Assembly (NCBI RefSeq): GCF_000300815.1
Contig: NZ_AMRX01000007.1
Location: 124,001-188,000 of the forward strand
From: Gayadomonas joobiniege G7
Lineage (GTDB): Bacteria; Pseudomonadota; Gammaproteobacteria; Enterobacterales; Alteromonadaceae
DNA length: 64,000 nt
Direction of reading: 5' to 3'
Below the pieces are notes generated by a model. The model was given only the letters and a program-made list of their open reading frames with translations. It was not told where the DNA came from and did not search any database. Below are positions 32,069 to 35,156 of the stretch, in pieces. Position 1 is the first letter of the stretch. The number at the start of each line of letters is the position of its first letter. The translations under genes were made by a program, and so were the position numbers.

Positions 32069-32926
32069 ATGTTAGCCAAACAACAGCTGCAAAAAACTTT
32101 TTGGCTTGTTCTGCTTATTTTATTTATATGTCCTGTGCATTCTGTGATTTCGGCAGAGTTAATGCAAGCAGATGACTACCGCGCTAATGTTGCCGTCACT
32201 GAATATTACGCCAGCGAAAAGCTTGATGGTATCAGAGCCTATTGGGATGGTCAGCATTTAATTTCTAAATCTGGCCGTCAGTTAAAAGCACCGCCTTATT
32301 TTACCGATAGCTTTCCAAGTTATCCGTTAGACGGTGAGCTTTGGGCTGGCCGAAACAGTTTTGAACAGACCTTATCAATTGTTCAATCAAATGATAAAAA
32401 AAATTGGCAATCCTTGCGCTTGATGGTGTTTGATCTACCGGCTTACCCTGCACCATTTGCCGATCGCGTGCAACAAATGGAACACCTACAAAAACAATTA
32501 AATCATCCTTACATAGAGTTTATTCCTCAACAATTAGTCCGCTCTGAAGCAGCATTAAAAGCTCAATTGAAAAGTGTGCTCGAGCAAGGCGGTGAAGGTT
32601 TAATGCTGCATCATAAAGCAGCTAATTACCCTGGCCAAAAAGGTGTTGATTTACTAAAGTTAAAACCTCAATATCAATCAGTGGCAACTGTTATTCAAAT
32701 TAATGAAGGTCAAGGCCGTTTTACTGGGTTAATGGGTTCATTAACTTTAAAAACCAGTAATGGTCAGACCTTTAAATTGGCATCAGGCTTTACCATAGCA
32801 GAGCGAGAAAAAAAGTTTAAAGTCGGTGATAGAATCCGTTACCGATTTTCGGGGTATACCGGGAAAGGTCTACCTAGGCATGCAGTTTATATAAGAATTG
32901 AAAAACCAAATGGAAGTAATAAATAA
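32069..32926 (+). CDS. ATP-dependent DNA ligase with signal peptide (LigE-like)
   Basis: 285 residues. N-terminal signal peptide (FWLVLLILFICPVHSVISA, cleavage ~31). Nucleotidyltransferase motif I KLDGIRAYWDG (adenylated Lys ~50), motif III LDGELWAG, motif IV EGLMLH, motif V LLKLKPQ, then a C-terminal OB fold. This minimal two-domain form is found as periplasmic LigE in competent proteobacteria, with a proposed role in joining imported DNA. Signal-peptide presence is visible; periplasmic function is inferred. Overlaps the start of the next gene by 17 bp. Confidence 0.88.
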   Translation: MLAKQQLQKTFWLVLLILFICPVHSVISAELMQADDYRANVAVTEYYASEKLDGIRAYWDGQHLISKSGRQLKAPPYFTDSFPSYPLDGELWAGRNSFEQTLSIVQSNDKKNWQSLRLMVFDLPAYPAPFADRVQQMEHLQKQLNHPYIEFIPQQLVRSEAALKAQLKSVLEQGGEGLMLHHKAANYPGQKGVDLLKLKPQYQSVATVIQINEGQGRFTGLMGSLTLKTSNGQTFKLASGFTIAEREKKFKVGDRIRYRFSGYTGKGLPRHAVYIRIEKPNGSNK

Positions 32927-34211
32927 TCACTTAATTAAATTTAACAGCGAACACTATCTACTTGTGGATTGCCCAGCTCAATGGCAAACCTCAAACATTC
33001 ACCCAATAAACCCCAATCAAATATCCTGGGTATTTCTTAGTCATGCGTCATTAGCAACCCTTGCCGGTTTACCCAAGCTTATTCAACAGGGGTATCGTGG
33101 CAGTATCATATGCTCACCTGCCACAGCGGCTCTATTACCAAGCTTTATATCAGTGCTGCTCGAGAGCGAATTTAAAAACGCAGATGATATACATCAAACC
33201 CTGCTTGAACGTATCAATCTCCAATTGCGAGTTGAAGATTTTAAACGATGGTTTATCTTGCCTGCACTGACAAAATGGCAGTTAAAAATTCATCCTGCTG
33301 GTTTTATGCTCGGCTCAGCATTTCTTGAGTTGATGCACGATGAGCTAAAACATTTTATAACACCTGTATTGGGCTCAGGCCGCAATCAGCTTTTGCCTCC
33401 TCCTAGAGCACCGTTTCAAAGTGAATCATTGCAGCTTAATTGCAATATTCTACCCAACACCAACCCAACGATCAGTCAACGAAAAAAACAATTACACCAA
33501 ATTCTAAAAGACCTCATCGACAAAGGTAAAAGCTTAATGGTTATTGCACCTTTGTATGGAGCAACACTCGAGATCTTATACGCTATTGAAGACACAATGG
33601 CCAAATTGACACGTAATCGTATTAACAGTTGGACCATGCCCCAAAAGTTCAACCTGTATATTGATGCAGATTTTTATAAACCCAAAGGGCTTGAAAAAAA
33701 TGATTTAAAAAAGCTTTGGGGACAAGAAAGCCGAGTAATGAGAGCTAGTCGCCGCCACCCGCTCGACTTTGATAGTTTTGAACCTGTTGCATTAACGAGT
33801 TTAACCGCCGCTGACGTAAAGACTTCAGAACAATTTAAACGACAGTGGATTTTATTAAACGATGCGCATCCAATGGATAAAAAAAGAATATCTCAGTATT
33901 TTTCCATTGCAAAAAACGCAACAAATGTTCAGCTATTAGTCACTGATGAGGGGATCTTTAAACAGCTGAAGCAACTATGCCACAGCAACCAAGACGCTTC
34001 ACTTTCGCTTGAATATTTAGCTGGCTACAGTGGTCATGCCGATATCAGTGAATTAACCAGCTTTGTAAAAGGCATGCGATACAAACCTGCGGCTATTACA
34101 TTGGCCCAAGATAAAGCTGGTCACCGAACTTTATTAAAAAACGCACTTAAGGAGCAAATGCCTGAGTTAAAGATTAGCGAATTAAATGAACATAAAACAC
34201 TTTTTATTTAG
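32910..34211 (+). CDS. Degenerate beta-CASP metallo-beta-lactamase-fold protein
   Basis: 433 residues from ATG 32910 (the TTG at 32898 is an alternative). The layout follows beta-CASP RNA/DNA nucleases (COG1236): ISWVFLSHASLATLAGLP in place of the HxHxDH metal motif, HPAGFMLGSA in place of GHxxGSA, PLYGATLEILYAI, YIDADFYKP and GYSGHADISELTSF near the C-terminus. The first motif keeps only one His and no Asp-His pair, and the second lost its His, so zinc hydrolase activity is probably lost. It overlaps the DNA ligase gene, recalling ligase-associated exonuclease pairings, but the ligase here is exported and this protein has no signal peptide. Role unknown. Confidence 0.75.
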   Translation: MEVINNHLIKFNSEHYLLVDCPAQWQTSNIHPINPNQISWVFLSHASLATLAGLPKLIQQGYRGSIICSPATAALLPSFISVLLESEFKNADDIHQTLLERINLQLRVEDFKRWFILPALTKWQLKIHPAGFMLGSAFLELMHDELKHFITPVLGSGRNQLLPPPRAPFQSESLQLNCNILPNTNPTISQRKKQLHQILKDLIDKGKSLMVIAPLYGATLEILYAIEDTMAKLTRNRINSWTMPQKFNLYIDADFYKPKGLEKNDLKKLWGQESRVMRASRRHPLDFDSFEPVALTSLTAADVKTSEQFKRQWILLNDAHPMDKKRISQYFSIAKNATNVQLLVTDEGIFKQLKQLCHSNQDASLSLEYLAGYSGHADISELTSFVKGMRYKPAAITLAQDKAGHRTLLKNALKEQMPELKISELNEHKTLFI

Positions 34212-35073
34212 CCGCTAATCTCAGCGATAAATCGACTGCACGAATATGTTTAGTCAGTGCGCCGCTTGAGATAAAATCCACCCCAGGTTGTGCGTATTGA
34301 CTAATACTTTGCAAGGTAATGTCACCGGACACTTCAATTTTACAGTTATTTTTATGCTCTTTTTTAAGCGCAACTGCACTAGCAATTTGCACCGGGGAAT
34401 AATTATCTAACATAACAATGTCTGCGCCGGCGTCCAGTGCTTGTTGCAGCTCTTGATTATTTTCTACTTCAACCTCAACTGGTTTTTCCGGTGCGAACTG
34501 GCGCGCATTTGCAACGGCGTTGGCAATTGAACCAGCAGCCAGAATATGATTTTCTTTAATTAAAAAAGCATCGTATAAACCAAACCTGTGATTAACCCCT
34601 CCACCACATAAAACTGCATATTTTTGTGCTAAGCGTAATCCCGGTATCGTTTTTCGGGTATCTAACAAACGTGTCTCACTGCCTGCAAGTTGTGCCACAT
34701 AAGTCGATGTTGCAGTAGCAGTCGCCGACAGTGTTTGAACAAAATTGAGCGCCGTGCGTTCACCGGTTAATATCTCACGTGCAGGCCCTGTAAAAGTGCA
34801 AATGCGTTGCTCCGCAACCAGTTTATCACCATCATTTACATGCCAGTCGACCTTAACCGCACCACCGAGCTGAGCAAAAGTTTCTTCAACCCATAAACGA
34901 CCACAAAAAACTGCAGATTCGCGCGAAATAAGATAAGCGGTTGCTATTTCGGTTGGCGAGATCAAATTGGCCGTGATGTCCAAGGACACATCATGCCCGT
35001 TTAAATCTTCATATAGCGCCTGTCTCACTGTTTGCTGGCAATTTTGTTTAAGTTGTTTAGTAATTTCTGGCAT
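34204..35073 (-). CDS. nadC: Quinolinate phosphoribosyltransferase (decarboxylating)
   Basis: 289 residues from ATG 35073 (the upstream TTG at 35085 is less likely). NadC makes nicotinate mononucleotide from quinolinate and PRPP in de novo NAD synthesis. Motifs: DTRKTIPGLR, GGGVNHRFGLYDAFLIKENH, DIVMLDN and the C-terminal SGALTKH. The tail overlaps the convergent beta-CASP gene by 8 bp. In E. coli nadC neighbours ampD; here three genes intervene. Confidence 0.96.
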   Translation of the reverse strand: MPEITKQLKQNCQQTVRQALYEDLNGHDVSLDITANLISPTEIATAYLISRESAVFCGRLWVEETFAQLGGAVKVDWHVNDGDKLVAEQRICTFTGPAREILTGERTALNFVQTLSATATATSTYVAQLAGSETRLLDTRKTIPGLRLAQKYAVLCGGGVNHRFGLYDAFLIKENHILAAGSIANAVANARQFAPEKPVEVEVENNQELQQALDAGADIVMLDNYSPVQIASAVALKKEHKNNCKIEVSGDITLQSISQYAQPGVDFISSGALTKHIRAVDLSLRLAAK

Positions 35074-35156
35074 AACTCGTTTCAATAAAATTAAATGACA
35101 TCATTATACGCAATTTTTAAACGATAAATTGGCAATTTATTGGTTTTAATTAAATG

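Follow-up and report, generated by a model that had tools for sequence, protein, structure and literature searches.

The window analysed here is a stretch of 64,000 nucleotides of Gayadomonas joobiniege G7 (contig NZ_AMRX01000007.1, positions 124,001 to 188,000), and all coordinates refer to this stretch unless a genome or locus is named. At 32910..34211 on its forward strand it carries a gene for a beta-CASP/MBL pseudo-nuclease of 433 aa when translated from the ATG, which we identified by ORF, Pfam, phmmer, motif and fold evidence; a TTG at 32898 offers an alternative start and extends the ORF to 32898-34211 (437 aa). Taking the ATG as the start, the gene overlaps by 17 bp the ORF of a LigE-type ATP-dependent DNA ligase on the same strand (32069..32926, 285 aa), in agreement with the overlap reported in the first-pass annotation of this DNA. 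The ligase contains KLDG, LDGEL, EGLMLH and DLLKLK, which we take to be ligase motifs, and is itself preceded by a gene for a clan AA aspartic protease (TIGR02281; 31407..32021, forward strand). The same upstream gene is found in another member of the genus, G062, and, as judged by eye, in two further genus genomes (G060 and G061).

Downstream, a nadC-like quinolinate phosphoribosyltransferase gene on the reverse strand (34204..35085) converges on the pseudo-nuclease gene and forms the right border of the gene block shared with G062. The two frames overlap by 8 bp in the window (34204-34211) and lie about 240 bp apart in G062 (locus L032). A promoter and terminator scan returned fewer sites than the shuffle means.

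In phmmer searches, the window protein matched the structures of TTHA0252 (PDB 2dkf, 3ie1 and 3a4y), a bacterial beta-CASP ribonuclease of a type that we take to be COG1236-like, at an E value of 4e-10, and structures of archaeal CPSF proteins with weaker values. RMMBL was the sole Pfam family listed, barely above threshold at 22.4 bits against a cut-off of 21.6, and neither Beta-Casp nor Lactamase_B was listed for the protein in Pfam. The NCBIfam search gave partial, far sub-threshold matches to two beta-CASP families, Cas14 and aCPSF1, and one further match at chance level. When 59 relatives were included in the alignment, AlphaFold2 predicted a full-length fold (pLDDT 82.3, pTM 0.84), whereas the model obtained without an alignment was poor (pLDDT 42.3, pTM 0.27), and the fold prediction therefore leans on the relatives.

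The structure closest to the alignment-based model was TTHA0252 (2dkf; VIA-align Z 33.6, rmsd 3.4 over 402 residues), with 16-19% identity to the window protein in structural alignments; yeast CPSF-100 (2i7x) matched with Z 27.3 and rmsd 3.4 over 400 residues, and RNase J2 (8yyi) with Z 24.2 and rmsd 3.4 over 361 residues. In this model an MBL and beta-CASP fold spans the entire protein, which stops at the last MBL segment and has no extra C-terminal domain (CTD1/CTD2 absent). The phmmer, Pfam RMMBL and fold results agree with the full-length beta-CASP layout that had been read from the sequence at the outset.

We then compared the catalytic motifs of the window protein with those of 52 intact relatives from the same GTDB-type family, seven of them from its own genus; the counts over these 52 relatives include 14 rows of a separate, distant beta-CASP group and one long-branch row (L062). 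In the motif alignment, four motifs on the forward strand have decayed: motif 2 (HxHxDH), which is THCHIDH in the relatives, reads SHASLAT (33039..33059), with the first His kept and the second His, the Asp and the last His lost; motif 3 (GHxxGSA), GHILGSA in the relatives, reads GFMLGSA (33300..33320); the SGD of motif 4 (FSGDLGA) reads TPV (33360..33368); and the VHG of motif C reads AQD (34104..34112). Motif A has likewise changed from IESTYGD to LNCNILP. In 52/52 relatives we find the other three motif-2 ligands (H, D and H), the His of motif 3, the Asp of motif 4, the Glu of motif A and the His of motif C; in the window protein these seven positions are occupied by S, A, T, F, V, N and Q.

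Also gone are FSIGRTQEL, ASGM and most of DSPLA, and deletions have removed the FVGYQA loop as well as the GAVDGVTGSC stretch of the N-terminal part. What is kept of the site comprises the Asp of motif 1, the first His of motif 2 and the His of motif B (GYSGHAD, with the SxHA feature present), the last of these within a motif B/RMMBL segment that is retained according to both Pfam and the alignment (GYSGHADISELTSF; 34023..34064, forward strand). Among the columns conserved in at least 90% of 59 named relatives, 58/162 are kept by the window protein and 16 fall in deletions.

For MTH1203, PMC3095777 places four zinc ligands in motif 2 and a single one in each of motifs 3, 4, B and C. Transferring this ligand list by motif to our alignment columns, we found that six of the eight ligands are lost in the window protein, and that the two remaining ones are the first His of motif 2 and the His of motif B. 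The first-pass annotation had recognised SHASLAT and GFMLGSA as the replacements of HxHxDH and GHxxGSA, as our alignment bears out, and its figure of at least four missing metal ligands was, by the same list, an underestimate. Its description of a pseudo-enzyme retained at full length stands, since the di-zinc site very probably cannot form with six of eight ligands gone. Given the established chemistry, a mechanism that depends on two metals should not operate in such a protein, and we are almost certain that the window protein is unable to use the one typical of its family. The nearly complete loss of the beta-CASP metal site in this full-length bacterial protein is real.

The origin of the gene is indicated by G062, where the ligase is immediately followed, in the same gene block, by a beta-CASP gene whose HxHxDH is intact (motifs THCHIDH, GHILGSA, SGDLG and VHGD). 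Between 26.5 and 35.1 kb of the window, ten ORFs are collinear with the G062 locus (L074), 9/10 of them in the same orientation, and the gene order of aspartic protease, ligase, beta-CASP and nadC is common to both. Consistent with this, the window genome (G000) and G062 are sisters in an rpoB tree (91/96, under the program's star threshold). Because an intact gene occupies the same block in G062, we regard the window gene as the positional orthologue, now decayed, of a TTHA0252/CPSF73-like nuclease. The first-pass annotation had held that an intact HxHxDH orthologue beside this ligase would make the window gene a single decayed copy, and such an orthologue exists in G062. For the window locus that description is apt, whereas simple decay is less likely than retention, as discussed below.

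The window genome additionally encodes an intact paralogue on another contig (G000:C7:453123-454499), with all motifs intact. This C7 copy is 67-69% identical to six other intact genus copies, lies on a branch of normal length (0.33 vs 0.29) and groups, weakly (94/58), with five other genus copies and not with that of G062; it may stem from a duplication or from a transfer. Judging by their motifs, the intact copies are presumably active as nucleases. The window protein, by comparison, has a branch length of 10 in both a 53-row tree and a 22-row tree, the latter made by dropping 31/53 rows (15 of them distant or on long branches, the other 16 being family rows removed by thinning), and takes no reliable place in either. 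Constraining it to join G062 gave a slightly better tree than the free search (p-AU 0.548), and constraining it to join the C7 copy gave one that was worse by 2.27 log units and not rejected (p-AU 0.139), the protein being too divergent for the tree to place it. In this lineage, a native beta-CASP ribonuclease beside the ligase would have been deprived of its zinc site, with an intact copy present on C7, and the loss is best explained by redundancy with that copy.

We also searched for relatives that share the decayed motifs. No decayed-form orthologue was found in the eight genus genomes, where the best non-self match to the window protein was the intact G062 gene (126.9 bits, 30% identity over residues 40-294) and the others were weaker. 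Among the matches listed from 395 family genomes, the G062 gene was again the best, with short stretches of higher identity in G248 (35% over 107 residues) and G016 (46% over 52 residues); this inspection covered matches with kept loci, and weaker, unlisted ones might hide a decayed orthologue. On the proposed check of whether orthologues share the losses and the ligase adjacency, none of those inspected shares the losses, and the adjacent G062 gene is intact. Beta-CASP matches were present in 7/8 genus genomes. Neither beta-CASP query had a match in the remaining genome, G063, for which a completeness of 100% is given, so the nuclease looks dispensable in the genus.

A first pattern scan of genome contigs yielded 19 pattern matches, none of which was confirmed. 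A second scan used HIDHVGRI and VIESTYGD, patterns derived from intact motifs that find only relatives with those motifs; at least 448/592 stretches were confirmed, and the best 80 were taken as named loci. Of 81 beta-CASP ORFs in these best 80 loci, 70 pass a four-motif expression, whose last-motif part is narrow, and 11 fail; ten of the failing ORFs still have HxHxDH, and the eleventh corresponds to the second half of a split gene. This gene, from Psychromonas sp. B3M02 (L143:5938-7326), is divided between two open frames, one of 250 aa and one of 212 aa. A plasmid search returned 17 records, all below 60% identity, and the ten listed were at 20-23%. The second beta-CASP gene of G064 (L194) has intact motifs and looks like a member of another subfamily.

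Several measures bear on whether the window gene is retained or decaying. Neutral drift of the 470-codon G062 gene to 25% identity produced 19 stops on average and never fewer than 9 over 60 runs, whereas the real window frame, at about 25% identity, has 0 stops in 437 codons. Positions at which all seven intact genus proteins agree were kept by the window protein in 32/76 cases (42%) at columns shared by at least 95% of 45 outside rows and in 29/123 cases (24%) at columns shared by less than 70% (Fisher p 0.007, with a middle band of 16/36 outside the test), and 91/119 hydrophobic-class positions among the 7/7-agreed set stay in class, figures that all lean upward because the alignment favours matches. 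The codon score of the gene (0.163) is the lowest of the 36 window ORFs, itself included (median 0.333), and among the frames on the opposite strand of this stretch one reaches 0.115. Its synonymous codon score (0.015) lies above 500/500 base-composition draws, though below the window-gene median of 0.115.

The strongest alternative is that the gene is on its way out: redundant with the intact C7 copy, open by chance or under weak coding constraint, and functionless. Its status as a singleton among the genomes searched, the intact copy elsewhere in the genome, the weakest codon score in the window, the two deletions and the saturated branch length would all fit such a course, and same-genus G059 offers a precedent. 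There, a second beta-CASP copy lies plainly in at least three pieces (L076:12374-13039 and L076:14201-14869; G059:C1:2123379-2127716) about 3 kb from an unbroken copy; its metal motifs are intact and the breaks look like insertions. Beta-CASP copies therefore do decay in this genus. The window gene, in contrast, has acquired no stop or frameshift where each neutral run acquired at least 9 stops, it preferentially keeps conserved and hydrophobic positions, and its synonymous codon usage exceeds every base-composition draw, and we consider its ongoing decay rather unlikely, if a serious alternative.

We favour instead a coding gene that is kept for its fold and is probably not a plain dead gene. 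It is fairly likely that the window gene has been kept for a non-catalytic role, and a function for the protein, known from one genome, is probable. On balance we lean towards the complete reading, in which the gene encodes a retained pseudo-nuclease, the positional orthologue of a TTHA0252/CPSF73-like enzyme whose zinc site was lost, with an intact copy of the enzyme on C7.

The adjacency to the ligase had earlier been taken to make a ligase-regulating role conceivable. The ligase was clearly recognised by NF006592 (301.9 bits vs a cut-off of 200) and by PF14743 for its OB domain (72.7 vs 28), and fell below the cut-off of TIGR04120 (25.9 bits vs 400). Members of the TIGR04122 exonuclease family are encoded near an ATP-dependent ligase, and in being a beta-CASP protein with such a neighbour the window protein resembles them. 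However, TIGR04122 was not listed for it in NCBIfam, two intact copies scored far below the cut-off (66.3 and 55.0 bits vs 325), and the neighbouring ligase is of the LigE and not the TIGR04120 type; the profile check thus places neither the window protein nor its intact relatives among the TIGR04122 ligase-associated exonucleases.

The distribution of the two genes points the same way. The ligase is present in 8/8 genus genomes and has a beta-CASP gene beside it in 2/8, the window genome and G062; the other six show no beta-CASP gene within about 1.5 kb on either side of the ligase, and 5/6 carry one elsewhere. Around the beta-CASP genes of the 80 named loci, flanks of up to 6 kb in either direction contained no ligase, and across the 395 family genomes the two genes stand side by side, by eye among the matches listed, only in G000 and G062. 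Since the adjacency is lineage-specific, a ligase-partner reading is unsupported, and the 2/8 and 0/80 counts rule it out as the leading one; the position next to the ligase is probably incidental.

A nucleic-acid-binding or regulatory partner of LigE, made from an overlapping operon, would be in keeping with the same-strand overlap, with the intact beta-CASP gene right behind the G062 ligase and with the rapid evolution of the ligase in this lineage. Of the eight ligases, that of G000 has diverged furthest (35-40% identity vs 48-64% among the others), and its end branch of 4.38, compared with 0.42-0.87 in the seven others, makes it by far the fastest-evolving, with the catalytic motifs present. 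The nadC branch is also longer in G000 (about 1.03 vs 0.39 for G062), and the acceleration is thus not ligase-specific. A LigE survey describes no consistent partner genes, though for Neisseria it reports a gene with a metallohydrolase fold that is retained next to LigE (PMC8455567). LigE is predicted to be exported and to work outside the cytoplasm (PMC10799422), and the ligase has a signal peptide, judged by eye from its hydrophobic N-terminus, whereas none is seen by eye in the pseudo-nuclease. Together with the missing adjacency in 6/8 genus genomes and 80/80 named loci, these points make a partnership with the ligase improbable.

How, then, could the protein act? It would be made, would not hydrolyse RNA or DNA by the two-metal mechanism, and would be kept for a non-catalytic role, in which its scaffold might serve to bind nucleic acid in single-stranded form or to pair with the intact enzyme. 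The most likely role would be nucleic-acid binding or regulation of an intact beta-CASP nuclease, much as CPSF100 and INTS9 accompany CPSF73 and INTS11. That it may act through the intact C7 copy is a tentative suggestion of our analysis, and we are more doubtful still of the full proposal, namely that an active/dead beta-CASP pair arose independently in a gammaproteobacterium, with the ligase-side copy as the RNA-binding or regulatory subunit of the C7 nuclease. INTS9/INTS11 and CPSF73/CPSF100 are described as pairing mainly through C-terminal domains (PMC7980224), and an archaeal enzyme as using for this its C terminus together with one loop and one strand in the MBL domain (PMC3095777). As the window protein is without C-terminal pairing domains, a heterodimer would need another interface.

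Our search of the open-access literature found no pseudo-enzyme of the beta-CASP type next to LigE in bacteria. A bacterium in which a dead copy and an intact paralogue share one cell, and which has a relative with the intact gene in place, would allow a before/after comparison of what a beta-CASP protein does when cutting stops. Should the gene simply be dying, this would be redundancy of an ordinary kind, following the presence of a second copy.

Among known systems, TTHA0252 shares with the window protein the full-length fold, the sequence match and the retained motif-B segment; the window protein differs in having lost 6/8 zinc ligands along with the Glu of motif A and the Pfam signature of Beta-Casp. 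RNase J2, which Firmicutes have as a second RNase J, is similarly a bacterial beta-CASP paralogue beside a main enzyme, but belongs to another subfamily, and the S. epidermidis enzyme still binds metal and stays active (PMC7864078). A different metal site or chemistry on the old fold, for which the surviving motif-1 Asp, first motif-2 His and motif-B His and the Mn ion at the altered site of that RNase J2 might speak (PMC7864078), is less probable even than a ligase partnership, since motifs 3, 4, A and C, FSIGRTQEL, ASGM and the FVGYQA loop were all lost together.

Finally, the closest parallel is with the eukaryotic mRNA and snRNA 3'-end processing complexes, whose active/dead beta-CASP pairs, CPSF73/CPSF100 and INTS11/INTS9, include a dead subunit with a role that PMC11616081 describes as still open. 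Unlike CPSF100 and INTS9, the window protein is bacterial, is known from one genome, is without the CTD1/CTD2 dimerisation domains and has a candidate partner. Like CPSF100 (Ydh1) and INTS9, it is a beta-CASP paralogue, dead as we infer from its ligand loss, beside an intact one in the same genome, its model matches the yeast CPSF-100 structure, and its motif 2 is lost, as is that of INTS9, which reads NYHC (PMC7980224). If the pairing proposed here is correct, the window protein and the C7 nuclease would constitute a bacterial parallel to CPSF73/CPSF100 that has been caught early, with the undecayed gene still in place in a sister species.
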